A stretch of DNA of 27,765 nucleotides, taken from IMG/VR virus record IMGVR_UViG_3300035701_000223, positions 1 through 27,765 of that record; one strand, given 5' to 3'. The notes beneath the pieces are model-generated. The model was not told the origin of the DNA. It did not search any database and saw only the letters and a list, made by a program, of their open reading frames with translations. Both the position numbers and the translations under genes were made by a program. Position 1 is the first letter of the stretch, and every line of letters starts with the position of its first letter. Below, one piece after another: positions 1-27,482 of this stretch. The stretch is from a virus.

Positions 1-2
1 TC

Positions 3-1532: not shown

Positions 1533-1541
1533 GGATATGGC

Positions 1542-4187: not shown

Positions 4188-4219
4188 ACAAAACGGTAGA
4201 TCTTAAAAAAGGAGAAACG

Positions 4220-4336: not shown

Positions 4337-4341
4337 TAACA

Positions 4342-5994: not shown

Positions 5995-6006
5995 TAGGCA
6001 GTATCG

Positions 6007-6087
6007 ATGAACGGTATGAAAAAGAAAAGTATCAAGTTTATCCTGAAGGTTATAAGAAAAAGGAAAGGGTCTAAACGGGTTAGATAA
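6007..6087 (+). CDS. Very small basic peptide ORF (26 aa)
   Basis: The ATG at 6007 opens a 26-aa peptide (MNGMKKKSIKFILKVIRKRK then GSKRVR), about half of it Lys or Arg. It fills the gap between the tailspike and the glycoside hydrolase. The upstream sequence (TAGGCAG) is a poor ribosome site. It may be real or a remnant; the only support is its fit to the gap. Confidence 0.25.
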   Translation: MNGMKKKSIKFILKVIRKRKGSKRVR

Positions 6088-6113
6088 TCATAGCAACCGT
6101 CATGAGGCGAAAC

Positions 6114-7373
6114 ATGATAAAAGATGACAAATTCGGAATCGGTTGGGGCCGTTTCGTCCCGATGGACGACGCATTCGGCTCATTCGATGGGACGAGGTTC
6201 ACGTTGGACGAAGTGGGGTTGGATAAGGAAGCCCACGCCGTAGCGAATGCGGGCGCAAATTTCGTCCGTGTCTTTCCGTGGGGCGGTTGGGACCGACATC
6301 CATACGGAAAAAAGTCTCAATTCCAGCCCTATATGCTCGATGCGTCCCGGGACAAGTGGGAGTTGTCGGCTTTCAACGACTACTACTTTCCCATCATGCG
6401 GAAAGTGTTTGAGATATTCAACGGCGTTAATATGAACGTGATGTTCGACCTGTTCGAGGCGTGTCAGTTTCATGGAGCTGTCCTTCAATGGTCTCCATGG
6501 GCCGTCAACGTGCAGGGCGTCCAGAGATTCTGGGAACCCGCCGCCGACAAATACTCGAAGGCGTGGATTCTTCGATGCCTGAAAGAGTTCAAAGGTTATG
6601 ACTGGCTGGTGTCGTGGGGAAACGAAACTATCCATTCCGACGTCCCCGATTTCACGAAACGGGTCATTGTACCCATCATTAAGTCTGAAAAGCTCGACTT
6701 CAAGCGGATGTTCTATGGCCCGAACATGACGGCTTACAGATACGACGGGAACCATGTCTACGCCCGGCAACCGGACAACCGGTCCGTACAGGACTTGGTC
6801 CAGGGGATGTTCGAGGACGAGTTCGGGCTTCAGGCGAAGATGGATGTCATCAGACCCGTCCACGGATGCGGCGGCCCATGCGATCCGAAGGACGGTGAAC
6901 GCCCATACGGACCGTTGCTCGACCAGGCCATTTACGTCAATAAGGCCGCCGTCCGGCTGTTGGTGAGCGACGACGGCGTTTATAACGGCGACAGCAAATG
7001 CGATTTTGATAATCAGAAGCGGTATCGTCCATCCGCCGCGACATGGGGTAAGATGGTGAAGTATATGGTCGGGATGCACCCCAACGTCAGTTTCGAGCAT
7101 ATCCCCCATGGGTCGAATCTCGATTGCCACGTCGAAACCTTCAAGGCAATAAGTGGGGCATATAGATCAGAGTTTGGGGCATGGCCCTCGAACTATGGGA
7201 AGCATCCATACACGCCGCCACCTCCCGGCCCTGGACCGGAACCTGAACCCGGACCAACGCCGGGGCCGGATTGCCGGTGTTCCTATTGGCTGGAAAAGGG
7301 GGGCGACGGGAAGCGAGATTGGAAGCGGTGGTGGGATTGCCTTTTCGGCGATGGACCGAAACGGTGCAAATAG
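6114..7373 (+). CDS. GH5-like glycoside hydrolase (cellulase-type TIM barrel) with Pro-rich linker and Cys/Trp-rich tail
   Basis: 419 aa from the ATG at 6114, which has GAGG at good spacing; an ATG at 6102 adds four residues but lacks an SD. Features of family-5-type (beta/alpha)8 enzymes are visible: GANFVRVFPWGGW near residue 50, the acid/base motif WGNE (Glu ~171), and late motifs LLVSDDG (~285) and RSEFGAW (Glu ~353), one of which should hold the nucleophile. I cannot tell which from sequence alone. After ~370 comes a Pro/Gly linker (PPPPGPGPEPEPGPTPGP) and a 34-residue tail rich in Cys, Trp and Lys, possibly a surface- or wall-binding module. As the last gene before the terminator in the tail operon, it probably trims host surface glycans during adsorption. 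The enzyme class is likely; the substrate is unknown. Confidence 0.65.
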   Translation: MIKDDKFGIGWGRFVPMDDAFGSFDGTRFTLDEVGLDKEAHAVANAGANFVRVFPWGGWDRHPYGKKSQFQPYMLDASRDKWELSAFNDYYFPIMRKVFEIFNGVNMNVMFDLFEACQFHGAVLQWSPWAVNVQGVQRFWEPAADKYSKAWILRCLKEFKGYDWLVSWGNETIHSDVPDFTKRVIVPIIKSEKLDFKRMFYGPNMTAYRYDGNHVYARQPDNRSVQDLVQGMFEDEFGLQAKMDVIRPVHGCGGPCDPKDGERPYGPLLDQAIYVNKAAVRLLVSDDGVYNGDSKCDFDNQKRYRPSAATWGKMVKYMVGMHPNVSFEHIPHGSNLDCHVETFKAISGAYRSEFGAWPSNYGKHPYTPPPPGPGPEPEPGPTPGPDCRCSYWLEKGGDGKRDWKRWWDCLFGDGPKRCK

Positions 7374-13183: not shown

Positions 13184-13411
13184 ATGTTATTTTATCTTGG
13201 CAAGTGTGCTGGTTTTGATGTGGTTTGCGACAAGTGCGATTTTTCTGAACATCTTGATGATGATGACATTATTTATGCTCGGCGTACCGCACGAGTTAAG
13301 GGATGGCGGATTCGAATAGAGTCAAATATCCCCAGGATGGAAGGCGGATATGTTTATTTATGCCCGACCTGTAGGGAGAGCGAAGAATCGCGTCCGGGGA
13401 AGGAGGATTGA
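13184..13411 (+). CDS. Zinc-ribbon protein (75 aa)
   Basis: ATG with AGGAG nearby (ATAGGAGATTAGG). Two Cys pairs are visible: CDKC (residues 15-18) and CPTC (~61-64), flanking a basic stretch (ARRTARVKGWRIRIES). A small zinc ribbon of this kind may bind nucleic acid or protein. The C-terminal RPGKED is encoded by GGGGAAGGAGG, which also serves as the ribosome site of the next gene. Confidence 0.6.
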   Translation: MLFYLGKCAGFDVVCDKCDFSEHLDDDDIIYARRTARVKGWRIRIESNIPRMEGGYVYLCPTCRESEESRPGKED

Positions 13412-13412
13412 T

Positions 13413-13622
13413 ATGAGATTTATTATTGGCCTGATTGTCGGATGCATCGTCGGGTTCTTTGGATGCGCTGTTTTTGCGGCGAATAAAATAACAAGGGCGG
13501 ACAAGCTGTTGGAGGCGGCTCAATATATCAAAAAACAATGGCTAAATTTTAATGGGAATCCATATGATGTTTTACCATTGATTCGGGCCATCGATGATTG
13601 CGAGGGAAAGGAAGAGAAATGA
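13413..13622 (+). CDS. Small membrane-anchored protein (69 aa)
   Basis: Start at the ATG at 13413, preceded by GGAAGGAGGATTGAT; an upstream in-frame ATG at 13350 lies inside the previous gene with no SD. Residues 1-24 (MRFIIGLIVGCIVGFFGCAVF) are a membrane segment or signal anchor; GFFGC might serve as a lipobox. The rest is soluble and ends LIRAIDDCEGKEEK, a version of the C-terminal AIxDYEGKEEx motif shared by several genes downstream. Function unknown. Confidence 0.6.
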   Translation: MRFIIGLIVGCIVGFFGCAVFAANKITRADKLLEAAQYIKKQWLNFNGNPYDVLPLIRAIDDCEGKEEK

Positions 13623-14065
13623 GCGAACCTAAAGGGCCATTCGACCGGGCGATCATCAGTCTAAAAAACTCTAAGTCTGAAGCACGAGACAACGGAGATC
13701 ACGTTGAGGAAATATCCTATCGGAGAGCCATCCGCGTCCTTGAAGATTGGCCTAAGTGGAAGCCCCTAATCGAGGCGGCGGGAAAGGTTGATAAAAAAGA
13801 ATGCCTAGCTTGCCTTGATTGTGCATGGTGCGTGATGTTCATAGATTTAAAGAATAAGAATCGTGTGAGCGAGGGACTTAAACCAATCCGCGCCCTCCTC
13901 GAATCCCTGCCGGGGAAGGAGGTTGAAGAAGAACCTAAGCATTATCGTTGTGAGTCATGCGGAAAAGACTTTGATAAAAAACTCTTTTCACACAGCAGAA
14001 CAGAGGAAAACATGCGGGGAGAACCGGTTGAGGTTGAGTGTGGCCCCATAACGGAGATTACATGA
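13619..14065 (+). CDS. Hypothetical protein with Cys-rich zinc-binding parts (148 aa)
   Basis: ATGA-coupled start at 13619 with SD GGAAAGGAAGAG. The first ~65 residues are helical and charged (AIISLKNSKSEARDNG). A Cys cluster (ECLACLDCAWC, ~60-71) and a C-terminal zinc finger (YRCESCGKDF ... VECG) follow. The phrase LESLPGKEVEEE contains the GGGGAAGGAGG segment used elsewhere as a gene junction, so this gene may be a fusion of two cassettes. No function can be assigned. Confidence 0.6.
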   Translation: MSEPKGPFDRAIISLKNSKSEARDNGDHVEEISYRRAIRVLEDWPKWKPLIEAAGKVDKKECLACLDCAWCVMFIDLKNKNRVSEGLKPIRALLESLPGKEVEEEPKHYRCESCGKDFDKKLFSHSRTEENMRGEPVEVECGPITEIT

Positions 14066-14280
14066 TCAAATACAGCACGGATGAACTGGTTGAGGAAATA
14101 AAAAAACCAACGTGGGATTATGTGAGTGGAGAACTAGACGACATCATCATCGCCCAGCTCCGGGCGGCGGACAGTCTGTGCGAGGCGGCGAAGGAAGCAA
14201 TGCCATATCTTATACGCAATGCCCATCACGCTAAATTGAGCAAGGCCATCGCCGAGTACGAGGGGAAGGAGAAGCCATGA
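14062..14280 (+). CDS. Hypothetical 72-aa protein, cassette family with shared C-terminus
   Basis: Start ATG 14062 overlaps the preceding stop; SD ACGGAGATTAC. The sequence has LRAADSLCEAAKEAM (~35-50) and ends KAIAEYEGKEKP. Both features recur in the next gene (GADALCEAAKDVM, KAIADYEGKEEA), so the two are paralogous modules. Probably a small helical protein. The C-terminal codons include the next gene's ribosome site (GGGGAAGGAG). Confidence 0.6.
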   Translation: MIKYSTDELVEEIKKPTWDYVSGELDDIIIAQLRAADSLCEAAKEAMPYLIRNAHHAKLSKAIAEYEGKEKP

Positions 14281-14516
14281 GTGAGAAGAGCCTGATGAAA
14301 CTAGCATCGGACCTAGGGGTATCATTTAGCGCGGCCAAGATTATCAGCGACCACGTAAGGGCAGAATACAACGGTCGGCTTCAAGGGGCAGATGCGTTGT
14401 GCGAAGCGGCAAAGGATGTAATGGTGATAATCGATGAAGATGAGGCAATAACCACGGATGAAGCAAAGCCACTCCGCAAGGCCATCGCCGACTATGAGGG
14501 GAAGGAGGAAGCATGA
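14277..14516 (+). CDS. Hypothetical 79-aa helical protein, paralogue of upstream gene
   Basis: ATGA overlap with the preceding gene. Residues ~5-28 (SLMKLASDLGVSFSAAKIISDHV) could be a helix-turn-helix, which I state with low confidence. The second half shares LCEAAK and the C-terminal AIADYEGKEEA with neighbours. From 14478 on, its 3' end is part of the 29-bp segment that borders the tandem duplication. Confidence 0.6.
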   Translation: MSEKSLMKLASDLGVSFSAAKIISDHVRAEYNGRLQGADALCEAAKDVMVIIDEDEAITTDEAKPLRKAIADYEGKEEA

Positions 14517-15103
14517 AAACAACAAAAGCCATCCTGACTGAGTTAGATGCGTGCTCGGAGGCCGTGAAGTGGGCCGGTCGAAAGACGCATAAGCAAGCGT
14601 GGGAGACGTGCAAGCGCGGAGACTGGCTATTATGGATTGCGGACAGGTTCGACGTTGACAGGAAACTACTTGTCTTGGCCGCGTGCGGTTGTGCGAGAAC
14701 GGTCCTCAAGTATGTTCCAGTAGGCGAAGATCGACCGAGGATTGCCATTGAAACGGCTGAGGCGTGGACAAGAGGTGAGGCGATGATTGACCAGGTGCGA
14801 TCCGCCGCCTATGCCGCCGCCTATGCCGCCTATGCCGCCGCCGATGCCGCCTCTGCCGCCCATGCCCTCTATGCCGCCGAGGCCGCCGCCTATGCCGCCG
14901 ATGCCGTCTATGCCGCCTATGCCGTCGATGCCGTCTATACTGCCGCCCATGCCGCCGTCTATGCCGCCCATGCCGCCGATGACGTCTATACTGCCGCCCA
15001 TGCCGCCGCCCATAAGAACATGGCTGGTGTCGTGCGGAAGATCATCCCGTTCAGCGTTATCAAAAAGGCCATCGCCGACTATGAGGGGAAGGAGGAAGCA
15101 TGA
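14513..15103 (+). CDS. Imm5-like Ala/Tyr-rich repeat protein, tandem copy 1 (196 aa)
   Basis: ATG with a perfect SD (AAGGAGGAAGC) and ATGA coupling. Residues 1-95 (AWETCKRGDWLLWIADRFD, LLVLAACGCARTVLKYVP, DRPRIAIETAEAWTRGEA) resemble the Imm5-type putative immunity domain, whose members also carry Ala-rich helices. Residues ~97-163 are almost entirely Ala with Tyr, Asp, His and Val (AAYAAAYAAYAAADAA...), predicted as long amphipathic helix or solenoid. The end (GVVRKIIPFSVIKKAIADYE then GKEEA) carries the shared cassette tail. 'Immunity' is only the family label; partner and role in this phage are unknown. The next gene is a duplicate with one residue changed. Confidence 0.7.
   Translation: MKTTKAILTELDACSEAVKWAGRKTHKQAWETCKRGDWLLWIADRFDVDRKLLVLAACGCARTVLKYVPVGEDRPRIAIETAEAWTRGEAMIDQVRSAAYAAAYAAYAAADAASAAHALYAAEAAAYAADAVYAAYAVDAVYTAAHAAVYAAHAADDVYTAAHAAAHKNMAGVVRKIIPFSVIKKAIADYEGKEEA
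14801..15010 (+). repeat. GCC-rich low-complexity tract, copy 1
   Basis: 210 bp built almost entirely from GCC, TAT, GAT, CAT and GTC codons, coding the Ala/Tyr helix. GCC is used for nearly every alanine, so the DNA itself is a triplet-phased repeat. It leaves long open frames on both strands, which are shadows. Confidence 0.85.
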
Positions 15104-15684
15104 AAACAACAAAAGCCATCCTGACTGAGTTAGGTGCGTGCTCGGAGGCCGTGAAGTGGGCCGGTCGAAAGACGCATAAGCAAGCGTGGGAGACGTGCAA
15201 GCGCGGAGACTGGCTATTATGGATTGCGGACAGGTTCGACGTTGACAGGAAACTACTTGTCTTGGCCGCGTGCGGTTGTGCGAGAACGGTCCTCAAGTAT
15301 GTTCCAGTAGGCGAAGATCGACCGAGGATTGCCATTGAAACGGCTGAGGCGTGGACAAGAGGTGAGGCGATGATTGACCAGGTGCGATCCGCCGCCTATG
15401 CCGCCGCCTATGCCGCCTATGCCGCCGCCGATGCCGCCTCTGCCGCCCATGCCCTCTATGCCGCCGAGGCCGCCGCCTATGCCGCCGATGCCGTCTATGC
15501 CGCCTATGCCGTCGATGCCGTCTATACTGCCGCCCATGCCGCCGTCTATGCCGCCCATGCCGCCGATGACGTCTATACTGCCGCCCATGCCGCCGCCCAT
15601 AAGAACATGGCTGGTGTCGTGCGGAAGATCATCCCGTTCAGCGTTATCAAAAAGGCCATCGCCGACTATGAGGGGAAGGAATGA
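15100..15684 (+). CDS. Imm5-like Ala/Tyr-rich repeat protein, tandem copy 2 (194 aa)
   Basis: Differs from copy 1 by Asp12 to Gly and by loss of the last two residues: the shared tail is cut after GKE, where the DNA runs directly into the RusA-like gene (GGAATGATTG). Otherwise identical, including every synonymous position I compared. Near-perfect identity means either a very recent duplication, active conversion, or an assembly error. It overlaps the resolvase gene start by ATGA. Function as for copy 1. Confidence 0.7.
   Translation: MKTTKAILTELGACSEAVKWAGRKTHKQAWETCKRGDWLLWIADRFDVDRKLLVLAACGCARTVLKYVPVGEDRPRIAIETAEAWTRGEAMIDQVRSAAYAAAYAAYAAADAASAAHALYAAEAAAYAADAVYAAYAVDAVYTAAHAAVYAAHAADDVYTAAHAAAHKNMAGVVRKIIPFSVIKKAIADYEGKE
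15388..15597 (+). repeat. GCC-rich low-complexity tract, copy 2
   Basis: Copy of 14801-15010 within the second unit of the tandem duplication. The same triplet-phased GCC-rich composition codes the Ala/Tyr helix. Confidence 0.85.
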
Positions 15685-16037
15685 TTGCCTTGACGATACC
15701 CGGCCAGTTGCCGTCCCTAAACAAAATGCTTCGGACGCACTGGGCCAAGCGTGCGAAACTCAAGAAAGACATGAGATGGATACTGATGTGCGCCTATGGC
15801 ACGCCGCCTCCCGACGGCAACCGCAAACGGCTTTGCCATCTCGTTATTACCGTCTATCAGAAGACCCGACGATTTGATGAGGACAACCTGCACGGGGCAT
15901 GTAAACCCGTGATTGATTGCCTGAAGGAAATGGGATTCATTTATCGGGACTCGCCGAAGTGGCTTGACCTGGATATACGGCAGGCGCTGGATCACAAGAA
16001 GCCTCGGATTGAGATCGAGATTGAAGAGTTGCCGTGA
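15681..16037 (+). CDS. rusA: RusA-like Holliday junction resolvase
   Basis: 118 aa, the usual size for RusA. The fold signature is present: IPGQLPSLNKMLRTHWAK at the N-terminus, then RRFDEDNLHGACKPVIDCLKEMGFIYRDSPKWLDL. Asp66, Asp68 and Asn69 form the D-x-DN catalytic motif; Asp90 in YRDSP occupies the place of the third acidic residue, where many family members have DDP. The enzyme resolves Holliday junctions as a dimer during phage recombination or before packaging. It is coupled to the duplicated gene upstream by ATGA and fits the recombination module further left. Confidence 0.88.
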   Translation: MIALTIPGQLPSLNKMLRTHWAKRAKLKKDMRWILMCAYGTPPPDGNRKRLCHLVITVYQKTRRFDEDNLHGACKPVIDCLKEMGFIYRDSPKWLDLDIRQALDHKKPRIEIEIEELP

Positions 16038-16120
16038 TGTTTTATATCGCCCTGGTCTACCTTGCGGCCTTCACGGGCGGGATCGTATATGCACTTTTCG
16101 AGGATAGGAGGAGGGCATGA
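16037..16120 (+). CDS. 27-aa membrane peptide
   Basis: TGATG overlap with the resolvase stop. MFYIALVYLAAFTGGIVYAL is a single membrane helix with a basic tail (FEDRRRA). The tail codons AGGAGGAGG supply the SD of the next gene, so the two are translationally linked. Confidence 0.5.
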   Translation: MFYIALVYLAAFTGGIVYALFEDRRRA

Positions 16121-16284
16121 TTTCTTTATTATTTCTATTGAGTGCCGATATTTTGGGCGCAATATTTATTATCGAACTCGGGAATATTAGCAGGGCTCCG
16201 AAAAGGATAACATTTTTGGCATGTCTCATCTGGGGAATCCTTGTTGCCATGATTGTTCATATTATCGAACATCATGGTTTTTGA
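16117..16284 (+). CDS. 55-aa protein with two membrane segments
   Basis: ATGA-coupled, SD GGAGGAGGGC. Two hydrophobic helices (LLFLLSADILGAIFIIE and FLACLIWGILVAMIVHII) flank a basic loop (SRAPKR). The topology resembles small class II holin-like proteins, but so do many phage membrane peptides. It is ~2.4 kb from the endolysin. No family recognised. Confidence 0.55.
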   Translation: MISLLFLLSADILGAIFIIELGNISRAPKRITFLACLIWGILVAMIVHIIEHHGF

Positions 16285-16306
16285 GAACATTGAAAAGGAG
16301 GGAGGC

Positions 16307-16477
16307 ATGAATCCCCCTGAAAAGCCCAAGCCGAAATGGACTGCACCCTGTTGCTTCGATGTATTCGCACAATCTACGGAGACCGATATCGCCTGCGCTG
16401 CGTACCTGAAAATGGTTCCGGTGGAAACGTGCGGAAGGGACTGTCAGGCATATAAGCCGTGGAAAGGGAACGCATAA
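16307..16477 (+). CDS. Cys-rich 56-aa protein
   Basis: Start ATG 16307 with a strong SD (AAAAGGAGGGAGGC). Contains CC, C and C-x3-C groups (APCCFDVF, DIACAAY, ETCGRDCQAY) that could bind a metal. Begins MNPPEKPKPKW. No known function. Confidence 0.55.
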   Translation: MNPPEKPKPKWTAPCCFDVFAQSTETDIACAAYLKMVPVETCGRDCQAYKPWKGNA

Positions 16478-16486
16478 GGAGGAACA

Positions 16487-17284
16487 ATGAATAAAAAAAG
16501 AATGGTAGTTGTCTCAGACTTTCATAGCGGCCATGAATACGGATTGACGCCGCCGGATTGGTGGTTCAGGGAAGATGCTGAGGCAGAGCGAATCTCTAAG
16601 CCTGCCAAGTTTCAGAGGAGACTATGGGAGTTCTATACGAAGACTATAGACTCGCTGAAGCCCATCGATATTCTGGTTGTCAACGGGGATGCAATCGAGG
16701 GTAAGGGTGAACGATCCGGAGGTGTCGAATTGATAACGCCGGACAGACATGAACAGGTAAGGATGGCCAGAGAGATCATTGACTATACTCATGCTCCCCT
16801 TGTCCGGATCCTCTATGGAACGAGATATCATGTCGGCAAGGAAGAGGACTTTGAATCCACCCTGAAGGATTCGCTACATTGTGAAGACGTGCAGATTCAA
16901 GGACACGCGTTTCTTGAGATCAACGGGAACGGCGTGGATATAAAGCATAAGGTTTCCAGCAGTACGGTCCCTCATGGCCGGATGACGGCAATTGCTAGGG
17001 CGCATCTCTGGAATGTTGTTTGGAACGCCGAGCATGAACGGCAACCGAAAGCCGATATCATCATTCGGAGTCACGTGCATTATCACCAATATTGCGGCGG
17101 ATCATCATGGTTGGCGATGACCACTCCGGCTCTTTGTTATAACTCATCCTATGGGATTCGGGAATGCGAAGGTCTGGTGGATATTGGGATGATATGCTTC
17201 GATTTCGATGACGAAGGAGGATATATATGGCATCCAGAGATTGCAAATTTCGCGGATTTAAAAGTGCTGTCCGAAGAGATATAG
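16487..17284 (+). CDS. Calcineurin-like metallophosphoesterase
   Basis: 265 aa, SD AAGGAGGAAC. Motifs of the two-metal phosphoesterase fold occur in order: Asp11-x-His13 (SDFHSGH), Asn66-Gly-Asp68 (VVNGDAIEG), GTRYH (111-115, in place of the usual GNH), His173 (ARAHLW), and His196-x-His198 (RSHVHYH). Phage members of this family are usually predicted DNA or nucleotide phosphoesterases; the substrate here cannot be told. The GN-to-GT change at the third motif is notable but His115 is kept. It sits between small accessory genes and the conserved unknown at 17351. Confidence 0.82.
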   Translation: MNKKRMVVVSDFHSGHEYGLTPPDWWFREDAEAERISKPAKFQRRLWEFYTKTIDSLKPIDILVVNGDAIEGKGERSGGVELITPDRHEQVRMAREIIDYTHAPLVRILYGTRYHVGKEEDFESTLKDSLHCEDVQIQGHAFLEINGNGVDIKHKVSSSTVPHGRMTAIARAHLWNVVWNAEHERQPKADIIIRSHVHYHQYCGGSSWLAMTTPALCYNSSYGIRECEGLVDIGMICFDFDDEGGYIWHPEIANFADLKVLSEEI

Positions 17285-17568
17285 GGGTTTCATGGAGAGA
17301 GATCGAGGAGGCGAGAGCCAAAACGGGAAATCTGAACGAGGAGGAAGAGAATGAAGAATTCGAAGGAATTGAATCGGAAGGTTATTCTGAGTGGCATTTC
17401 CGACATCATGTTCGACCGGTATCCGGGGGACAACAATACGACCTTGACGCCGGAGAAGAAGATGTATTTTGCGATGGACGAGAAGACATTGATTCTACCG
17501 GCGGCGAATTTAATGTCTTTTCTGAGCGCACAAAATACAGACTCTGCACCCAAAAGGTTTCTCGCTAA
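17227..17568 (+). CDS. Overlapping ORF with strong SD (113 aa), uncertain
   Basis: The ATG at 17227, inside the end of the phosphoesterase gene, follows GAAGGAGGATATAT, a strong ribosome site. The first 40 residues (MASRDCKFRGFKSAVRRDIG VSWREIEEAR) look protein-like and fill the 66-bp gap to the next gene, but the frame then runs 218 bases through the 185-aa gene, where it reads like a shadow. A short real gene that lost its stop codon by a frameshift is plausible. Confidence 0.4.
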   Translation: MASRDCKFRGFKSAVRRDIGVSWREIEEARAKTGNLNEEEENEEFEGIESEGYSEWHFRHHVRPVSGGQQYDLDAGEEDVFCDGREDIDSTGGEFNVFSERTKYRLCTQKVSR

Positions 17569-17908
17569 GCAATATAAGAAAATTGCTTCGGCCATGCTGA
17601 GTTATGTATCTATCACGCCATTTGAAATCCCATTTACGGCAGACGGGAAGCCGGTTGTTTTCGGGGGATTCGGGAAGCAATTTTACATTCATAATTCCGT
17701 GGCAAGATTGAATAAAGGCGTTCCGAATCCGAAGACTCGTCCGGCACTGAGGTTGCCGTGGGAACTGTCGTTCAATGTGTCGATCTATCCGAATAACGAA
17801 TTCAGTGAAGACATGTTGAATGATCTTTTCGTTCGGGGCGGCGTGGCAATCGGGCTGGGGACGTTTAGGGGGGTTTTCGGGAAGTTCCGTGTATCGACAT
17901 GGGAATAA
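17351..17908 (+). CDS. Conserved phage protein of unknown function (185 aa)
   Basis: ATG with GAGGAGGAAGAGA upstream. The sequence (VILSGISDIMFDRYPGDNNT, KKMYFAMDEKTLILPAANLM SFLSAQN, IPFTADGKPVVFGGFG, GGVAIGLGTFRGVFGKFRVSTWE) is well-formed and alternates beta strands and helices. The ending 'GLGTFRGVFGKF' recalls the glycine-rich loop of RAMP/Cas7-like folds, and I have a vague memory of similar phage proteins, but this is inference. It could bind single-stranded nucleic acid. Its stop codon lies two bases before the first NNGGC array. Confidence 0.7.
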   Translation: MKNSKELNRKVILSGISDIMFDRYPGDNNTTLTPEKKMYFAMDEKTLILPAANLMSFLSAQNTDSAPKRFLAKQYKKIASAMLSYVSITPFEIPFTADGKPVVFGGFGKQFYIHNSVARLNKGVPNPKTRPALRLPWELSFNVSIYPNNEFSEDMLNDLFVRGGVAIGLGTFRGVFGKFRVSTWE

Positions 17909-18001
17909 TCGCGGCGCGGCTGGGCTAGGCAGGGCAAGGCTTGGCTTGGCTGGGCAGGGCATGGCGCGGCAAGGCCGGGCAAGGCAAGGTGGATTATTAC
18001 C
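17901..18001. repeat. 10-bp inverted repeat enclosing the first NNGGC array
   Basis: GGGAATAATC (17901-17910) and GATTATTACC (17992-18001) are inverted complements at 9 of 10 positions, bracketing the first pentanucleotide array. A further GATTAT (18106-18111) ends the second array. They could be element ends or a stem that presents the array as a loop. Confidence 0.55.
17911..17990 (+). repeat. Phased pentanucleotide array 1 (NNGGC)15
   Basis: Fifteen consecutive 5-bp units with fixed GGC and varying first two bases (dinucleotides in order GC GC TG TA AG AA TT TT TG AG AT GC AA CG AA), then AAGGT. The array has no point interruptions. It starts two bases after a stop codon and ends in AGGTGGATTAT. 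Confidence 0.93.
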
Positions 18002-18010
18002 GCACATATC

Positions 18011-18105
18011 GTGGCAAGGCGTGGCGCGGCAAGGCGTGGCAAGGCTTGGCGCGGCAAGGCCGGGCAAGGCAAGGCAAGGCGTGGCAAGGCGAGGCAAGGC
18101 TAGGT
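18011..18105 (+). repeat. Phased pentanucleotide array 2 (NNGGC)18
   Basis: Eighteen consecutive NNGGC units (AA nine times, GT four, GC two, TT, CG and GA once), then TAGGT. It is separated from array 1 by 20 bp, exactly four units, so the 5-bp phase is unbroken across both. A 24-bp stretch (17966-17989 and 18051-18074) is shared by both arrays. The array end provides the GTG start of the next gene. Confidence 0.93.
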
Positions 18106-18463
18106 GATTATAAAAAATGCTCTCTCTAAAAACAAAATAGACAAAGATTGTCGAGGTTATGAAAAACTACTCGTCGCCATCGCGCTCCAAGCCGTTCAAG
18201 ATTATCTCAACGGCCCGTCCAAAGACAATAGGCGAAATTATACAAAAATCAAACAGTATCAACGTGATAAAATTAACAGTCAAAACAAAATCTACGCAAG
18301 CGCTAAACGCTATATTTTCGACGGAATATCGGATAACTCTATTTTCGGATTTAGTTCCATCATGAATTATTTCCAGATCGACATACCCCATGCCAGGAAA
18401 AAGATACGGTTATCTAATAGTAAACAAACGGCCTTACGTTCTTTGCCCCTTGACAGGAAGTAA
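18104..18463 (+). CDS. Conserved phage protein, possible DNA-binding (119 aa), GTG start formed by array end
   Basis: An in-frame TAG lies at 18101-18103, and no other Met, Val or Leu start suits, so the GTG at 18104 is the start; GAGG and AAGG of the last array units act as its ribosome site. The sequence (LLVAIALQAVQDYLNGPSKD, YASAKRYIFDGISDNSIFGF SSIMNYFQIDIPHARKKI) resembles a widespread small phage protein with an N-terminal helix, an 'A..wIF' segment and a C-terminal FSF..i...L.idp.y.R..i block. Function unknown. Confidence 0.65.
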   Translation: MIIKNALSKNKIDKDCRGYEKLLVAIALQAVQDYLNGPSKDNRRNYTKIKQYQRDKINSQNKIYASAKRYIFDGISDNSIFGFSSIMNYFQIDIPHARKKIRLSNSKQTALRSLPLDRK

Positions 18464-18484
18464 GTCAATGCACATAATCAATAT

Positions 18485-18691
18485 ATGCAGGGAAAAGATC
18501 AAAATCCGGAATCCATCAAAACCTGCGTGCATTGTGGGGGGGAATTCCAACTTAAAAATGGCATCAAGATGAGACGTTCCTATTATTGCGGATATTGCCA
18601 AACCATTATGTTCGGCAATCCCGATCTTGCCTGGATACCGAAACTTCGGAGAGCCGAAACAATCCCCCCTGGATTTCACAAGATAGAATGA
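18485..18691 (+). CDS. Zinc-ribbon protein (68 aa)
   Basis: Two Cys pairs, CVHC (~14-17) and CGYC (~35-38), define a zinc ribbon (TCVHCGGEFQLKNG, RSYYCGYCQTIMFG). The ATG at 18485 lacks a clear SD; an out-of-frame ATG at 18468 has a better one (AGGAAG) but opens only a 34-codon frame. Seven G at 18535-18541 fall within the first knuckle. It is coupled to the endolysin by ATGA. Confidence 0.55.
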   Translation: MQGKDQNPESIKTCVHCGGEFQLKNGIKMRRSYYCGYCQTIMFGNPDLAWIPKLRRAETIPPGFHKIE

Positions 18692-19035
18692 CTAACACAC
18701 TCCTCCGCGCAGAATTCAATCGCCTATTCGGGCTTCTTTCCGTTTACGCCGACATCAATGATATTAAATTCATTCATGGAAACGAGGGATATTACCGAAC
18801 TGCCGAACAGCAAAAGGCGTTATTCGATGCCGGTAAATCTAAGTGTGATGGCGTGAAGATTATCAGTCGCCATCAATCCCACCTTGCCCGAGATCTCTAT
18901 GTCATTAACGGCAAGGCTCAGATTGTTTGGGACGATTCGCCTTATATAATTCTCGGGGCATATTGGAAAAAGCTGGGCGGAACGTGGGGGGGTTATTTCG
19001 AGGGATTTAGGGACATTTTTCACTTCGAAATCTAG
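18688..19035 (+). CDS. Endolysin-type M15 peptidase (D-Ala-D-Ala carboxypeptidase / L-Ala-D-Glu peptidase-like)
   Basis: 115 aa from the ATG at 18688. Zinc-binding motifs of the VanY/M15 family are visible: Ser60-x-His62...Ala67-x-Asp69 (SRHQSHLARD; the usual Gly is His65) and Asp109-x-x-His112 in the terminal DIFHFE. YRTAEQQKALFDAGKSK is the typical upstream segment. His62, Asp69 and His112 should hold the zinc. It cleaves peptide stems of peptidoglycan for host lysis. There is no signal peptide, so a holin should release it; the small membrane proteins nearby are candidates. Confidence 0.85.
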   Translation: MTNTLLRAEFNRLFGLLSVYADINDIKFIHGNEGYYRTAEQQKALFDAGKSKCDGVKIISRHQSHLARDLYVINGKAQIVWDDSPYIILGAYWKKLGGTWGGYFEGFRDIFHFEI

Positions 19036-19041
19036 CAAGAC

Positions 19042-19128
19042 ATGGATAAAATCCATATATACGGGTGGGAAACGGCTCTCAAGAACAGGCGATGGGTGGG
19101 CCGCCGAGAGCACGGGGGAAGTGCATAA
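19042..19128 (+). CDS. Possible 28-aa peptide
   Basis: ATG at 19042, product MDKIHIYGWETALKNRRWVG RREHGGSA, ending in TAATG shared with the next gene. No clear SD. Its codons include the next gene's ribosome site (GGGGGAAG). Weak support beyond coupling. Confidence 0.35.
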   Translation: MDKIHIYGWETALKNRRWVGRREHGGSA

Positions 19129-19409
19129 TGCCCTATATCGTCTCCGCGCGCAGAGAGAGTTTTCAGGACTTCCTTGAGAAAGTCAAGAACCTGCGCATCG
19201 ACAGCGCCGGGGAGTTGAACTATCTTGTCACGATGCTCGGTCAAGTCTATCTGACACAGCATGGGATATCGTATCGGGTGTTCAATGAGATCGTCGGTGC
19301 TTTTGAATGCGCTAAAATCGAGACATACCGCCGGCAGATAGCCAACATGGAAGATATAAAAAAGCAAGAGAATGGGGATGTTTTTATCCCTGTTCCGGGG
19401 GTTGAATGA
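19128..19409 (+). CDS. DUF6899-like conserved phage protein (93 aa)
   Basis: TAATG-coupled ATG at 19128. The sequence has the characteristic blocks of a small phage family: GELNYLVTMLGQVYLTQHG, SYRVFNEIVGAFECAKIETY RRQIANMED, KKQENGDVF. Mostly helical. The family's biochemical role is unknown. Its stop overlaps the next gene by ATGA. Confidence 0.7.
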   Translation: MPYIVSARRESFQDFLEKVKNLRIDSAGELNYLVTMLGQVYLTQHGISYRVFNEIVGAFECAKIETYRRQIANMEDIKKQENGDVFIPVPGVE

Positions 19410-19750
19410 AAGCCGAAGAAGCGGAAAAAACGCTCGGTCTCGGCCTCTGCTTTAGATGCGAACACCGCGCCGAATTCCTGGAGAATGGGCTCAAGCCGCG
19501 TTTCGAGTGCGGCATGGAGAAAACGGCTACCTCGTGTTGTTATTGTTTTATACCGTGCAAGCCCGTTGCCGTTGCGCCCAGCGACGGGGAGAAGCGTCCC
19601 ATCTTCGGCCCATGGATGATTGCCGGACGGGTGAGGGCGCAAGGACTTGTTGACCATGAACGATTGCGGCTGAAGCTGGTCGATGTCGGCGACGGGGCCG
19701 TTACCGCAGTCTGGACAATCAAGCCGAAAGGGAAGAAAAAAGCCAAGTGA
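19406..19750 (+). CDS. Cys-rich zinc-binding phage protein (114 aa)
   Basis: Coupled by ATGA. Residues 13-40 (GLCFRCEHRAEFLENGLKPR FECG) match a common phage motif C-x2-CEHR...PR-x-ECG, followed by CCYCF...C, giving enough Cys for one or two zinc sites. The C-terminal half (GRVRAQGLVDHERLRLKLV) is beta-rich with a basic tail (KPKGKKKAK). Function unknown. Confidence 0.6.
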   Translation: MKAEEAEKTLGLGLCFRCEHRAEFLENGLKPRFECGMEKTATSCCYCFIPCKPVAVAPSDGEKRPIFGPWMIAGRVRAQGLVDHERLRLKLVDVGDGAVTAVWTIKPKGKKKAK

Positions 19751-20121
19751 AAATAGCTTATATTGCGGGGCCGATGACGCCCCATGGAAATAGACTCGAT
19801 ACGGAGAACGCGGCTATCGAATATCTCCTGAATATTAGGGACATGGTTCAAGTCGCCGTCGGTCTAATCGCCAAGGGTTATGCGCCATATTGTCCCGCCC
19901 TAGATTATCAGTATTTCTTATCGCTGACTTATGGCGGCGACACCATAACCGAGGGTGCCATCAAATCTATCAGCATGGCATTCCTTGAGGTTTCCGACAT
20001 CATCGTCTTGTTGCCCGGATGGGAGGTATCGGAAGGATGCCAAGCCGAATATTCGCGGGCCGTGGAATTAAAAATGCCGTCATTCTATGGGGTCAGGAGC
20101 GTACCTGATGCCCACGTTTAA
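19747..20121 (+). CDS. Nucleoside 2-deoxyribosyltransferase-like protein (DUF4406)
   Basis: GTG start in GTGA overlap. The sequence opens MKIAYIAGPMT and has SDIIVLLPGWEVSEGCQAEY SRA, the nucleoside deoxyribosyltransferase-like/DUF4406 signature (G-P-M near the start; a late Asp, W-x-x-S-x-G-x-x-E). Length (124 aa) fits. True enzymes exchange bases between deoxynucleosides; many phage members are uncharacterised. A link to nucleotide salvage or modified bases fits the two methyltransferases downstream but is inference. Confidence 0.75.
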   Translation: MKIAYIAGPMTPHGNRLDTENAAIEYLLNIRDMVQVAVGLIAKGYAPYCPALDYQYFLSLTYGGDTITEGAIKSISMAFLEVSDIIVLLPGWEVSEGCQAEYSRAVELKMPSFYGVRSVPDAHV

Positions 20122-20356
20122 GCCGCCTGTATCCCATTATGATCGCTCCGTAATCGAGCCGATTGATTTCATCGAATCGAGCTTCACGCCCGAGGAATAC
20201 CGGGGCCATCTCAAGGCTTGCATTATTAAATATATCTCTCGATATCGCTACAAGGGGAAGCCGATTGAGGACTTAACCAAAGCGCAGACCTATTTGCTCT
20301 GGCTAATCGAGTTTGAAGGGAATCGACCCGTATCCCAAACAGGGGAGGATAAATGA
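20108..20356 (+). CDS. DUF3310 family protein (82 aa)
   Basis: ATG at 20108 with AGGAGC upstream, overlapping the previous gene by 14 bases. The pattern HYDRSVIEPIDFI...GHLKACIIKYISRYRYKGKPIED LTKAQTYLLWLI is the DUF3310 consensus (often mislabelled nucleotide kinase in phages). Function unproven. Coupled to the next gene by ATGA. Confidence 0.85.
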   Translation: MPTFKPPVSHYDRSVIEPIDFIESSFTPEEYRGHLKACIIKYISRYRYKGKPIEDLTKAQTYLLWLIEFEGNRPVSQTGEDK

Positions 20357-20658
20357 AGATTGATTTCTCGGTTCCATTGAAGGCACTTAGCGGGGAGGAC
20401 ATCAAGGACGGCAAGGGCGACGCGTTTACGCTCAGGGACGCAGCCGTTGTCGCACTCGATGCCTTATCTGACGATGACCGAAAACTCGATGGTAAAGAGA
20501 AATACCGACGGGGAGCGCTGGCATCTCGCATCTACGGCTGCAAGGAACCCGTCATGTTGGACGTGGATGACGCGAAGCTCGTGAAGGACTTGATCGGCAA
20601 GATATACGGGCCACGCATTGTCAAGGAAGCCTGGGACCTGCTGGAAGGCAAAGAATAA
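20353..20658 (+). CDS. Conserved small phage protein (101 aa)
   Basis: ATGA start. Structure: N-terminal PLKALSGEDIKDG, a helical middle (TLRDAAVVALDALSD), then KEKYRRGALASRIYG and a C-terminal DDAKLVKDLIGKIYGPRIVKEAWDLLEGKE. This layout is seen in small phage proteins of unknown function near replication or lysis genes. It ends in GKE, like the cassette tails at 13.6-15.7 kb. TAATG couples it to the next gene. Confidence 0.6.
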   Translation: MKIDFSVPLKALSGEDIKDGKGDAFTLRDAAVVALDALSDDDRKLDGKEKYRRGALASRIYGCKEPVMLDVDDAKLVKDLIGKIYGPRIVKEAWDLLEGKE

Positions 20659-20963
20659 TGGCAATCAGGACTCGAGAGGCTTTTGTCATCACCTTATCGG
20701 TCCTGACGGCCGGATTCATATATTCATCCTACCGTCCGGCTCCCTATGCCGAATTTGCCGCCGCCGTCGTCGCCGTCTTCGGTGGATATGGTTACAAACG
20801 CCTGATGCAACGCAGGGGCGAATACCAACCAAACGGCAACGGTAATGGTCACGGCAAGGAGATTCCGTCGGATCGGCCAAGCGTCACGATGGTAATGGAT
20901 AAGCCAATAATTGACGATAGTTATACACGCATAGATAAACCGAGCGGGATAACTGCAGAATGA
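20658..20963 (+). CDS. Membrane protein with two hydrophobic segments (101 aa), possible holin
   Basis: Residues 9-25 (FVITLSVLTAGFIYSSY) and 31-45 (EFAAAVVAVFGGYGYKRL) are hydrophobic, with short basic ends, followed by a hydrophilic Asn/Gly-rich tail (NGNGNGHGKE). This two-helix topology and its place between the endolysin and a coiled-coil membrane protein make it the best holin candidate in the window. Not diagnostic. Ends with ATGA overlap. Confidence 0.5.
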   Translation: MAIRTREAFVITLSVLTAGFIYSSYRPAPYAEFAAAVVAVFGGYGYKRLMQRRGEYQPNGNGNGHGKEIPSDRPSVTMVMDKPIIDDSYTRIDKPSGITAE

Positions 20964-21571
20964 AAAAAATCCATTGGATTGCCCTTGCGTTGGCAATCGC
21001 ATTCGGCATCGCAGTCTGTGACGGCTTGCGGATCCGCGATAAGGCGTCCGTAGTCGTCGGGCGTTACCAAGAGGCGGCGGCTATTGCCGAAGCCGATGCC
21101 AAAATCAAAGATGCACTAATTGCCAAACAGAACACAATCATTGGGCAAAAGGATAAGGAGATTGCCGAGAAGATCAAGATCATTGGTCAAAAAACCAACG
21201 CCATTGGTCAGAAAGATAAGGAGCTGGACAAAATAAGGGGCACATGGCCCAAATTAAGCGCCGATTGCCGGGCCAAGCTTCTTGAACTGGACAATACGTG
21301 GGCTCAGAAGTTCAGTCTTTCAGAAGCCATTATTGCGGAGAAAGATAAGGTTATCTCCGCATGGGCCGTAAAGTTCAACGCGCAGGTCGTCATCTCTGAG
21401 TCCTGGAAAGCGAAATACGACGCAGAGTGTCGCCTTTTGCAATTGGCAACTCAGGGCTGGAAGGTTGCCGAGCGAAAACTCCGATGGACGCGGGTCATGT
21501 CAACCGTTAAGTCCGGCTTAATAGTTGGTACGCTCGGCTATATCGGATATTCAGCCATCAAGGGAAAATGA
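20960..21571 (+). CDS. Coiled-coil protein with N- and C-terminal membrane segments, spanin-like
   Basis: 203 aa. Residues 5-21 (HWIALALAIAFGIAVCDG) are a signal anchor; IAVC is a poor lipobox. Residues ~40-95 repeat I-x-GQKDKEI three times (IIGQKDKEIAEK, IIGQKTNAIGQK, DKELDK), a periodic coiled coil. Residues ~183-200 (SGLIVGTLGYIGYSAIKG) are a C-terminal membrane helix. A protein joining two membranes by a coiled coil is the design of a unimolecular spanin; an Rz-like or tail-chaperone role is also possible. If a spanin, the host is Gram-negative. Confidence 0.5.
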   Translation: MKKIHWIALALAIAFGIAVCDGLRIRDKASVVVGRYQEAAAIAEADAKIKDALIAKQNTIIGQKDKEIAEKIKIIGQKTNAIGQKDKELDKIRGTWPKLSADCRAKLLELDNTWAQKFSLSEAIIAEKDKVISAWAVKFNAQVVISESWKAKYDAECRLLQLATQGWKVAERKLRWTRVMSTVKSGLIVGTLGYIGYSAIKGK

Positions 21572-21572
21572 G

Positions 21573-21917
21573 ATGTCACTATCAGTAGGCGAAGTTACGG
21601 CAATCGGGGTCGGTCTCGGCAATATAGCGGCCTGGACAAAGCTCATTTATGACGCCCGGAAGAACGGCAAGAACGGGAACGGCAAGATCTGTCCTCTTCA
21701 TTCCGGGATTGTTACAGGAATAGAGACGGGAGAAAAACAAAAGGCGGAACTGGCAGAGGAAATTAAAAACCTTCATGCCGAGAACCGCCAGGATCACCAG
21801 CAAATCTTTACCGATATTAAGGCACTCTCTGTATCCGTTGCTAGTGCCGCCGCCGCTGCCGCTACCGCCGCCACTGCCGCTATCGAATTTACGAAGAAAA
21901 GAAGAGGCAAGGCATGA
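21573..21917 (+). CDS. Ala-rich coiled-coil / membrane-associated protein (114 aa)
   Basis: ATG at 21573, five bases after the previous stop with AAGGGA upstream. N-terminus (SVGEVTAIGVGLGNIAAWTKLI) is weakly hydrophobic; CPLHSGI may bind metal; the middle is charged helix; a 15-residue Ala/Thr run (ASAAAAAATAATAA) precedes a basic tail. A 36-bp GCC/GCT-rich stretch encodes the Ala run. No family recognised. Confidence 0.5.
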   Translation: MSLSVGEVTAIGVGLGNIAAWTKLIYDARKNGKNGNGKICPLHSGIVTGIETGEKQKAELAEEIKNLHAENRQDHQQIFTDIKALSVSVASAAAAAATAATAAIEFTKKRRGKA

Positions 21918-22057
21918 ACATCATCCCCGAGTATTTGAATATAGCTTTTGCCTTTCAGCTCAAGCTCCAGCTCTCGCCGTTGAATATCGGCGCACTGATC
22001 GCGCTCGGGTTCTGTCTGGTCGTGGTGTGGCGGTGGGCGAAAGGAAAAACAAGATGA
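21914..22057 (+). CDS. 47-aa membrane peptide
   Basis: ATGA overlap. One hydrophobic helix, IGALIALGFCLVVVWRW, then KGKTR. The DNA coding it is repeated in a second small gene at 22434 (44 bp, one mismatch). Function unknown; possible holin or membrane partner. Confidence 0.5.
   Translation: MNIIPEYLNIAFAFQLKLQLSPLNIGALIALGFCLVVVWRWAKGKTR
21993..22036 (+). repeat. 44-bp direct repeat coding a membrane helix, copy 1
   Basis: 21993-22036 and 22453-22496 match at 43 of 44 positions (T versus C near the end). Both are translated in the same frame as ALIALGFCLVVxWRW. Confidence 0.9.
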
Positions 22058-22155
22058 AGGAATCCTTGGATGATAAAATTGGTGAAATCCGATTTTTATT
22101 ATATGTAATCATGGGGGAATTAGCCATTGTTGCAATGTGCCTTATTGTTAAGTAG
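22054..22155 (+). CDS. 33-aa membrane peptide
   Basis: ATGA overlap with SD AAAGGAAAAACAAG. Acidic start (MKESLDDKIGEIR) and one membrane helix (FLLYVIMGELAIVAMCLIVK). Common phage-type mini-protein, function unknown. Confidence 0.5.
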   Translation: MKESLDDKIGEIRFLLYVIMGELAIVAMCLIVK

Positions 22156-22160
22156 GTAAA

Positions 22161-22418
22161 ATGAAAACCGCCTTTGATTCGATAACGCAATTATATCAAT
22201 TTAAGTCCGGCGAGATGATCTATGTAATTGTTCATTATGAGAAGGGTATGCCTAGAAAGGCCGCCCTTCAAAGTTTGGAATATTCGGCTCGGTCAAGCGC
22301 AGAGGAAATATGGACTCAACGATACCCAAATAAACCCTGTCCCCCTGGGCATCTTGAAGGCAGGATCATAAATGGATGTCCGCCATGTCGCCTATTTCCT
22401 AAAGGATACATTGCATGA
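22161..22418 (+). CDS. Hypothetical protein with C-terminal Cys pairs (85 aa)
   Basis: ATG with AAGTAGGTAAA upstream. Beta-alpha N-terminal half (YVIVHYEKGMPRKAAL). The C-terminus has CPPGH and CPPC (~59-76), a likely zinc site. No known family. Confidence 0.55.
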   Translation: MKTAFDSITQLYQFKSGEMIYVIVHYEKGMPRKAALQSLEYSARSSAEEIWTQRYPNKPCPPGHLEGRIINGCPPCRLFPKGYIA

Positions 22419-22433
22419 CCACCAGGAGGGCCG

Positions 22434-22514
22434 ATGACCCGCCACTTACTGACACTGATCGCGCTCGGGTTCTGTCTGGTCGTGGCGTGGCGGTGGTATA
22501 AGAGGCGGAGTTAA
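22434..22514 (+). CDS. 26-aa membrane peptide, repeat-related
   Basis: ATG with strong SD CACCAGGAGGGCCG. MTRHLLTLIALGFCLVVAWR then WYKRRS. Its helix is the second copy of the 44-bp repeat, and its start context (ACCAGGA..CCGATGAxCCGCC) recurs at the membrane gene starting at 22943. TAATG couples it to the methyltransferase. Confidence 0.55.
   Translation: MTRHLLTLIALGFCLVVAWRWYKRRS
22453..22496 (+). repeat. 44-bp direct repeat coding a membrane helix, copy 2
   Basis: Partner of 21993-22036, 43 of 44 bases identical. It could drive deletion or gene conversion across the 460-bp interval. Confidence 0.9.
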
Positions 22515-22930
22515 TGACCTATGATGGGGCTAAGGACGGGAAGCATTATTGGCTAACACCGCTTGATTTGATGGATCAATTAAATCGTGAGTTTCAATTC
22601 GATTTTGATCCATGTCCCTATCCGATTCCAGAAGGGTTTGATGGCCTTGCTGTTGAATGGGGAAAATCAAATTATGTAAATCCGCCTTTTAATGGTCCAA
22701 CTAAATGGGTTCGGAAGGCTCTTGAAGAATACAAAAAGGGCAAAAAGATAGTCTTTGTTTTTCCTATTGACAAATGGATTCATTGGTTCATTGAGGCTGG
22801 GGCCGAGATCCGCAATTTGAAAGACGTGAAATGGTGTGCCATTGAGGATGGCCAACCGGGAAAAGGAACCGGACGTCATATTGCCTGCTTTGTCTTGGAT
22901 CCCAAAAGGCCAAATAGGGAAAAGACATGA
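22514..22930 (+). CDS. Phage N6-adenine DNA methyltransferase (Dam-type)
   Basis: 138 aa. The blocks HYWLTPLDLMDQL, FDFDPCPYP, GLAVEWGKSNYVNPPFNGPT KWVRKALEE are the signature of the phage DNA N-6-adenine methyltransferase family; NPPF is the catalytic (D/N)PP(Y/F) motif. It lacks a clear FxGxG motif, which this compact family handles differently. Probable role: methylating phage DNA to escape restriction. The length is near the short end for the family. It lies between two membrane mini-genes with matching start regions. Confidence 0.85.
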   Translation: MTYDGAKDGKHYWLTPLDLMDQLNREFQFDFDPCPYPIPEGFDGLAVEWGKSNYVNPPFNGPTKWVRKALEEYKKGKKIVFVFPIDKWIHWFIEAGAEIRNLKDVKWCAIEDGQPGKGTGRHIACFVLDPKRPNREKT

Positions 22931-22942
22931 CCAGGAATTCCG

Positions 22943-23206
22943 ATGAGCCGCCACTTGAAACGACGGTTAAGAAGCCTTGGCGGTTTCTTCGCGCTAGGCA
23001 TGGGTACGGATGTACTCGTCGTCCTCTGGTATCGCTCGGTCTCAAGCGGCATAGTATTTATGGCGATGTGTGTATCGTTCTTGGTTACACTTGTACCATT
23101 TCTGGTAACAGAACGTGGCATCACGGCGGGCAGGCGTGAACTTTTCGTGGCGTATGCGTTCGGGGCATCGGCGGGCACGCTTGTGGGGATGATGGTACGC
23201 ATTTGA
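22943..23206 (+). CDS. Membrane protein with two or three TM helices (87 aa)
   Basis: ATG at 22943, AGGA seven bases upstream. Segments GGFFALGMGTDVLVVLWY, GIVFMAMCVSFLVTLVPFL and FVAYAFGASAGTLVGMMV are membrane-spanning. The start MSRHL and its leader resemble the gene at 22434, a sign of shared ancestry by cassette copying. It overlaps the methyltransferase start by TTGA. Confidence 0.6.
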   Translation: MSRHLKRRLRSLGGFFALGMGTDVLVVLWYRSVSSGIVFMAMCVSFLVTLVPFLVTERGITAGRRELFVAYAFGASAGTLVGMMVRI

Positions 23207-23976
23207 TCTATCATGGCGACTGCCTTGACGTGATGCGCGGCATGGAACCGGATAGCGTGGATGCTATCGTTACCGACCCGCCATATGGCCTTGAATTCAT
23301 GGGGAAGGAATTTGATACGTTCCATGACTTCGATATTCCAGCCGATTTTGGGATGTGGCTTGCCGGGTTCATAGACGGAGAGGGTAATTTTGACATTCAT
23401 CGCCAGCATAGGCCGAGCGGGGACTATTACTACTGCCGATTTGAGATTAGTCTTCGCGCCGACGACGGCGGTATATTATCCATGCTCAAAGAGCGACTTG
23501 GGGGGAAGGTTTATTCTGGAAGTTCAATCCTAAACGGGAAGACGCACCAGAAGCAACGATGGGAGCTTGTCGCCCGCGCTGAATGTGCTCGGTTAGTAGG
23601 AGTATTGGACCGTTATCCACTACAAAGCAAAAAGAAAAGGGACTTCATTATTTGGCGCGAGGCATTGGCGGAGTCAATGAAAAACCCTGGGGTCAATCGC
23701 CCAGAATTGATGGCTGGGTTTTGGGAGAGATTAAGGGGTCTCCGGGAATATTGCGGGCCAATTACCGAATCGTCGGTTTTCATAAACGCGGCAAACCCAC
23801 GCGGGTTCGACCACTTCTTTTATCAATGGGCCGTTGAAGCCCTGCGTGTCGCCAAGCCCGGATGCCACCTACTCGCGTTTGGAGGAACGCGGACGAGCCA
23901 TAGACTCACGTGTGCAATTGAAGATGCGGGTTGGGAAATCCGCGATTGCCTCATGTGGGTTTACGGCTCGGGCTAA
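23203..23976 (+). CDS. Beta-class DNA methyltransferase, N-terminal part, with in-frame LAGLIDADG domain; ends at UAA
   Basis: TTG start (MIYHGDCLDVMRGMEPDSVD, typical of these enzymes). DPPY (residues 25-28) is catalytic motif IV. At about residues 50-190 an unrelated domain begins WLAGFIDGEGNF, an exact LAGLIDADG motif, and continues as a single-motif homing endonuclease (RFEISLRADDGGILSMLKER LGGKVYSG...). The methyltransferase resumes at NPRGFDHFFYQWAVEALRVA KPGCHLLAFGG...MWVYGSG, where the frame stops at UAA (23974-23976). The rest of the enzyme continues in another frame from 23982. Intein splice blocks are not visible. Either an 8-nt insertion broke the gene or the ribosome skips it. 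Confidence 0.85.
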   Translation: MIYHGDCLDVMRGMEPDSVDAIVTDPPYGLEFMGKEFDTFHDFDIPADFGMWLAGFIDGEGNFDIHRQHRPSGDYYYCRFEISLRADDGGILSMLKERLGGKVYSGSSILNGKTHQKQRWELVARAECARLVGVLDRYPLQSKKKRDFIIWREALAESMKNPGVNRPELMAGFWERLRGLREYCGPITESSVFINAANPRGFDHFFYQWAVEALRVAKPGCHLLAFGGTRTSHRLTCAIEDAGWEIRDCLMWVYGSG

Positions 23977-23981
23977 CTGGC

Positions 23982-24953: not shown

Positions 24954-25216
24954 AAGGCAAAACCTATTTCCTCAGCTTTGTGGAAGAGTGCGTAATGGAT
25001 CCTGCCTATTTCGAGTACGTAGGCGGGCGCATCGAGGTCTACGAGATAGGCCTCGACGCAGATCAATACGCCATCGAAGAGATCCGGTTCTTTACGAAAA
25101 ACCTGAGCGCCTATCACAAGTTGCGGGGCCGGTGGGATTTTGAGGACGCGACGGCGAAAGAATTGGAACGGCTGAGAAAGAAGATCACCGCCCTTAACGA
25201 TAAGGAGAAGGAATGA
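24950..25216 (+). CDS. Hypothetical 88-aa protein
   Basis: ATGA-coupled to the methyltransferase. MKGKTYFLSFVEECVMDPAY, GLDADQYAIEEIRFFTKNL, then a charged C-terminal helix (LERLRKKITALNDKEKE). No family recognised. Its terminal codons carry the next gene's SD (AAGGAGAAGG). Confidence 0.55.
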   Translation: MKGKTYFLSFVEECVMDPAYFEYVGGRIEVYEIGLDADQYAIEEIRFFTKNLSAYHKLRGRWDFEDATAKELERLRKKITALNDKEKE

Positions 25217-27469: not shown

Positions 27470-27482
27470 GGACTATAAACCG

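Follow-up and report, generated by a model that had tools for sequence, protein, structure and literature searches.

A probable recent tandem duplication of an Imm5-like gene between shared gene ends in a phage contig

The window (the entire 27,765-base IMG/VR virus record, a virus contig from a metagenome) carries two nearly identical Imm5-like genes in tandem. We think it probable (roughly 0.75) that one accessory gene, part of an array in the early region of a phage, was recently duplicated in tandem by way of gene ends that adjacent genes share. An exact comparison at an offset of 587 bases identified a repeat of 616 bases (a 587-bp unit plus a 29-bp seam). The first copy is at 14478..15093 and the second copy is at 15065..15680; all of the features that we describe are on the + strand. 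The only mismatch is at 14547/15134 (A in the first copy and G in the second), in agreement with a preliminary description, which had reported a near-perfect 587-bp tandem duplication with a single differing base at these positions. The mismatch is nonsynonymous (GAT, Asp, in copy 1 and GGT, Gly, in copy 2), so within the repeat the two copies differ by one residue. Gly is also found at this codon in L108, a relative that is discussed below.

Both copies are intact open reading frames. Copy 1 (14513..15103, with Asp at the variable codon) encodes 196 amino acids, copy 2 (15100..15684, with Gly) encodes 194 amino acids, and they overlap by four bases (ATGA). Each includes a 216-base tract of tandem codon repeats for Ala and Tyr, at 14798..15013 in copy 1 and at 15385..15600 in copy 2, and there is no difference between the two tracts. 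On the right-hand side, the identity stops after GGA, before the start of the downstream gene, where the context of that gene begins. The downstream gene (15681..16037) encodes a RusA-like Holliday junction resolvase (PHROG 1682, E = 3.5e-10).

The boundaries of the duplication are the same 29-bp seam at all three sites: this direct repeat marks the left edge, the right edge, and the point where the two units meet. As the preliminary description had reported for the junctions, this segment is present three times: the 29-mer AAGGCCATCGCCGACTATGAGGGGAAGGA matches exactly at 14478..14506, 15065..15093, and 15652..15680, and nowhere else in the window. The probability that a 29-base repeat would originate by chance in 27.8 kb is negligible. 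The first match is the 3' end of the upstream gene (14277..14516), the second is the 3' end of Imm5-like copy 1 as well as the tandem junction, and the third is the 3' end of copy 2. The preliminary description was right about the role of the segment at the junctions but missed that it is a gene end shared by several genes, which supplies a mechanism. The seam encodes KAIADYEGKE along with the Shine-Dalgarno sequence of the next gene, and is followed by an overlapping ATGA stop/start. The upstream gene overlaps copy 1 in this ATGA manner, just as copy 1 overlaps copy 2.

More generally, (K/R)AI(A/D)xxEGKE is the ending of both Imm5-like copies and of the genes at 13350..13622, 14038..14280, and 14277..14516. 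The first of these has a related seam (RAIDDCEGKEEK). The second is a small gene of a KYSTEEL...RAADxLCEAAK...KAIAxYEGKE array, and its seam has two differences. The third is another small gene of this array (LCEAAK...KAIADYEGKEEA), and the duplication has its left seam at the 3' end of this gene. Most of these gene ends include GGGAAGGAG, which is the Shine-Dalgarno sequence for the next gene, and most of them have the overlapping ATGA. With a degenerate search, we recovered this ending from four viral records (L108, L109, L110, and L113) besides G001, which is a record of the same virus as the window. In those four records, the proteins with the seam are small and of the KYSTEEL...RAADxLCEAAK...KAIADYEGKE type, and some are in tandem. 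In L109, the equivalents of the genes at 14038 and 14277 are joined in one open reading frame, as deletion between such repeats would give. L108 (also G003) has two array genes with an identical 3' part, one of which has an internal tandem duplication. Given these duplications and the joined reading frame in L109, the array is prone to duplication, deletion, and fusion.

So, we propose the following mechanism. Several adjacent genes, which are probably translationally coupled, end in one seam (codons for KAIAxYEGKE plus a Shine-Dalgarno sequence, and ATGA). Because the upstream gene and the Imm5-like gene share the seam, a single ancestral gene would have been flanked by direct repeats of 29 bp or more. 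If these seams recombined unequally, or if replication slipped from one to the other, one seam and the gene (587 bp) would have been duplicated exactly. The product would be seam-gene-seam-gene-seam, with two intact and coupled reading frames and with the RusA gene undisturbed. Both the recombination step and its direction, from one copy to two, are suggested by the arrangement of the sequence. If both copies are expressed, as seems plausible, then any benefit might come from more product or from room for the tracts to diverge.

Tandem duplication between short direct repeats is a familiar part of bacterial and phage genetics. The stability of tandem duplications has also been studied (PMC12607827). 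As in short-direct-repeat duplications, the unit in the window is bounded by repeats, there are n+1 repeats for n units, and the copies are nearly identical. Unlike in ordinary cases, the repeats in the window are functional gene ends that carry the Shine-Dalgarno sequence of the next gene; because of this, duplication or deletion between them would keep both the frames and the coupling. The kind of event is already known; what sets the window apart is how cleanly it illustrates this ordinary process.

Records of the same virus bear on the age of the duplication. G001 (3300035179_000096) matches the window from 15298 to its end, so that the contig begins inside the Imm5-like gene. It differs from the window in the Ala/Tyr tract by 8 substitutions and a 27-base insertion (or by 5 substitutions in another alignment), and these tract differences between records may be partly assembly error. 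Outside of the tract, G001 differs only at a patch of a methylase gene (23999-24206) and at one base at 24994, and there is no difference from 15601 to 23998. Because the two tracts in the window are identical and the tract of G001 differs from them, the duplication, or a conversion between the copies, postdates the separation of this locus from that of G001. The suggestion that the copies are very recent thus holds up: the fastest-changing part of the gene is identical between the copies and differs in a nearly clonal record. In other near-identical pairs of records, the length of the tract changes by 9, 42, or 48 bases, all of which are whole codons, and those pairs differ elsewhere too. Nowhere do near-clonal records differ more than in the tract at 15385-15600. 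We also considered that the end of the G001 contig (the equivalent of 15298) might mark a second two-copy strain; it is compatible with this, but mixed strains could produce such an end equally well, so we put no weight on it.

Another record of the same virus, G002 (47.7 kb), covers only 1-5198 and 18083-27765 of the window and does not include the locus. As G001 starts inside the locus, the whole locus is present in one record only, the window itself, and none of the records of this virus showed the gene in a single copy. G002 (L129 and L130) joins 18083-27765 of the window to 1-5198 via about 33 kb, implying that the genome is circularly permuted or circular, with a probable size of about 60.6 kb.

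Among phage GenBank records, nothing matched the locus at the DNA level, and the protein had one weak match (BK063670 vir526). An exact search for the start of the gene in viral contigs found nothing, and searches with the RusA gene and the gene at 13598 found G001 only, or nothing. L108/G003 is a syntenic relative, with 72% identity for RusA and 47-74% for many other genes. It has one Imm5-like gene, which adjoins seam-bearing small genes and has a tail, CKAIAQYEGRDK, of the seam kind. Since this single gene carries the same kind of tail, the seam-type tail is older than the duplication. (The tract of L108, at 633-1160, uses Trp and Gly, as in AWAAGDAA, where the window uses Tyr, Asp, and His.) The preliminary description had looked to copy number in related phages for a check: tandem paralogues recur, and the only syntenic relative that we found with the gene is single-copy. 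The tandem paralogues are mostly diverged, with about 72-89% DNA identity (L017, L023, L045, L054, L056, and L058), and they are also found in bacterial contigs (L068, L081, and L097). L056 has three tandem Imm5-like genes (5659-7296), and in the first and third of these the Ala tract is replaced by hydrophobic sequence rich in Ile, Val, Met, and Thr.

We also found an independent perfect duplication of an Imm5-like gene in L028 (2199-3503), with 646 identical bases at an offset of 651. The homology at its junction is short, so long seams are not required for such duplications. Across 1.06 Mb of fetched loci, the window and L028 had the only gene-sized tandem repeats with at least 90% identity. 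These data suggest that the Imm5-like family tolerates or favors duplication. We considered but do not claim a family-specific rate of duplication, as the window was chosen for its duplication, which leaves one independent case only.

We weighed two other explanations for the near-identity of the copies. The first is mis-assembly: there might be one real copy, with the assembler having gone twice around a loop closed by the 29-bp seam. The seam would be present even in a one-copy genome and would form such a loop at small k, and the record is a metagenomic contig. Also, contigs of the Imm5-like family often end inside the gene, including G001 (whose end is ambiguous), and as assemblies often break there, the handling of repeats at these genes seems to be error-prone. 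Nevertheless, mis-assembly seems unlikely. The copies differ at 14547/15134, which implies that the assembler met two versions, each in its own context, and there is an explicit tandem junction from the 3' end of copy 1 into the start of copy 2. Usual short reads are much longer than 29 bp. The perfect duplication in the unrelated L028 indicates that such a structure also exists outside of this contig, although L028 could share the artifact. Overall, from the sequence, the duplication looks real. It is still less likely, to the point of being improbable, that the duplication is older and has been held identical by gene conversion, perhaps for dosage. Conversion would account for identity that extends to the fast-changing tract, and the phage encodes a Cas4/exonuclease-like protein as well as the RusA-like resolvase. 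But the divergence of the paralogues elsewhere implies that conversion does not, as a rule, keep pairs of this kind alike, and two copies are not seen in any sister record (G001 starts inside the gene and G002 lacks the locus).

A different kind of alternative concerns the benefit of the duplication and is compatible with our explanation for its origin. The copies might be a selected arms-race expansion, with copies that neutralize varied toxins or host factors and a tract that diversifies. The recurrence of tandem paralogues across the family fits with this, as do the whole-codon changes in the tract between near-identical strains and the description of Imm5 as a family of immunity proteins against deaminase and CdiA-type toxins (PMC3482391). 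In particular, the window resembles homogeneous polyimmunity loci (Zhang et al. 2012, PMC3482391), which likewise have tandem paralogues of a putative immunity family on the same strand that overlap or lie close together, with no toxin gene between them. In contrast to the diverged paralogues of those loci, which are in bacterial chromosomes, the window has just two copies, which are identical except for one base, and they are in a phage. As the copies are identical, there has been no diversification yet, and no toxin was recognized beside the gene in the viral and bacterial loci that we scanned or in the phage itself. (The MuF protein of the phage ends with its MuF domain and has no C-terminal extension for a toxin.) We therefore view an arms-race expansion, which the preliminary description had raised along with a gene dosage effect, as doubtful. 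In a related and similarly speculative scenario, the seam would be a joint for gene shuffling: as it unites a C-terminal tail, a Shine-Dalgarno sequence, and the overlapping stop/start, recombination between seams would duplicate, delete, or fuse whole genes while keeping their translational coupling. In the Imm5-like genes, such switching of copy number along with the hypervariable in-frame Ala/Tyr tract would make up a system for diversification against hosts.

The Imm5-like protein begins with a helical domain of some 97 residues, continues with the Ala/Tyr tract, and closes with a helical C-terminal end. The N-terminal domain has the motif AC..A..W...AW..C.RGDW(L/M)LW. The predicted model is all-alpha, with a mean pLDDT of 82 that is low in the tract. 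The name "Imm5-like," from the preliminary description, is a weak fit. The full protein is a weak match to Imm5_like (Pfam PF21805), at 16.5 bits as compared to a cut-off of 25, while the N-terminal 97 residues alone score 25.8 bits, with only residues 49-96 aligning. At E = 0.01, 17 of 30 N-terminal domains of the family match PF21805, as do 19 of the 46 family members; 4 of the 46 match Imm5 (PF14423). The window protein was not matched by the PF14423 profile or by anything in NCBIfam.

A fold search of the PDB with Foldseek gave no hit with E < 3. The best VIA-align 2 rows were vinculin tail domains, but their Z of 7.4 is within the noise for helical bundles. In a library of viral folds, the credible hits were uncharacterized or "Imm-5-like" phage proteins only, and we found no work on the latter among the papers searched. 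The model also has a weak fold alignment to 7jtu_B, which we take to be SsdAI, over 139 residues (Z = 5.5, rmsd 4.4, and Foldseek E = 4.2), and this Z is also within the noise for helical bundles. SsdAI (PDB 7JTU), which is all-helical like the window model, is the immunity protein of a DYW-like deaminase toxin (PMC7901873). A sequence search of the PDB found no match of the window protein to SsdAI. Imm5 has been described as mostly alpha and as found with DYW deaminases (PMC3482391). Like the predicted immunity proteins of PF21805 and PF14423, the window protein is mostly alpha in its model, but it differs from the Imm5 families in its long Ala/Tyr tract, its setting in a phage early region, and the absence of a recognized toxin.

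The Imm5-like family is common in uncultivated phages, and relatives are encoded in 58 viral loci and in 41 loci of bacterial or archaeal assemblies. In the bacterial loci that we checked, the neighbors include phage genes (integrase, YqaJ recombinase, terminase, and primase). Among the families listed for the viral neighbors, HNH endonucleases, exonucleases, annealing proteins, and replication genes predominate. No toxin family was listed among the Pfam or PHROG matches of the bacterial neighbors, the viral neighbors, or the phage's own proteins, with the pooled lists giving the first 25 families. Orphan immunity genes do exist. Because no toxin was recognized among the neighbors scanned, we regard "immunity protein" as the name of a family rather than as a demonstrated function. 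The protein is all-helical in its model and probably acts as an inhibitor or a binding protein, with a tract that changes length in whole codons.

Thus, the window seems to have caught a phage accessory gene just after its duplication, with the probable causal repeat still visible and with a reason for that repeat to exist, namely shared gene ends that bear the ribosome-binding site of the next gene. It also points to a widespread and uncharacterized phage family in which a helical repeat tract changes fast and tandem copies recur. If duplication and loss driven by seams are general, this would help to account for the reshuffling of small-gene arrays in the early regions of phages.

Elsewhere in the window, the DNA methylase (23203-24953) has a LAGLIDADG endonuclease domain within its first half (Pfam LAGLIDADG_1, E = 2.4e-13). 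Its reading frame changes near 23976, and G001 has no difference around this position. At the patch at 23999-24206, G001 and apparently G002 have another allele in genomes that are otherwise nearly identical, which looks like local recombination. Finally, short GGC-rich repeats of about 10 bp are arrayed at 17913-18100, and the G002 contig starts inside this array.
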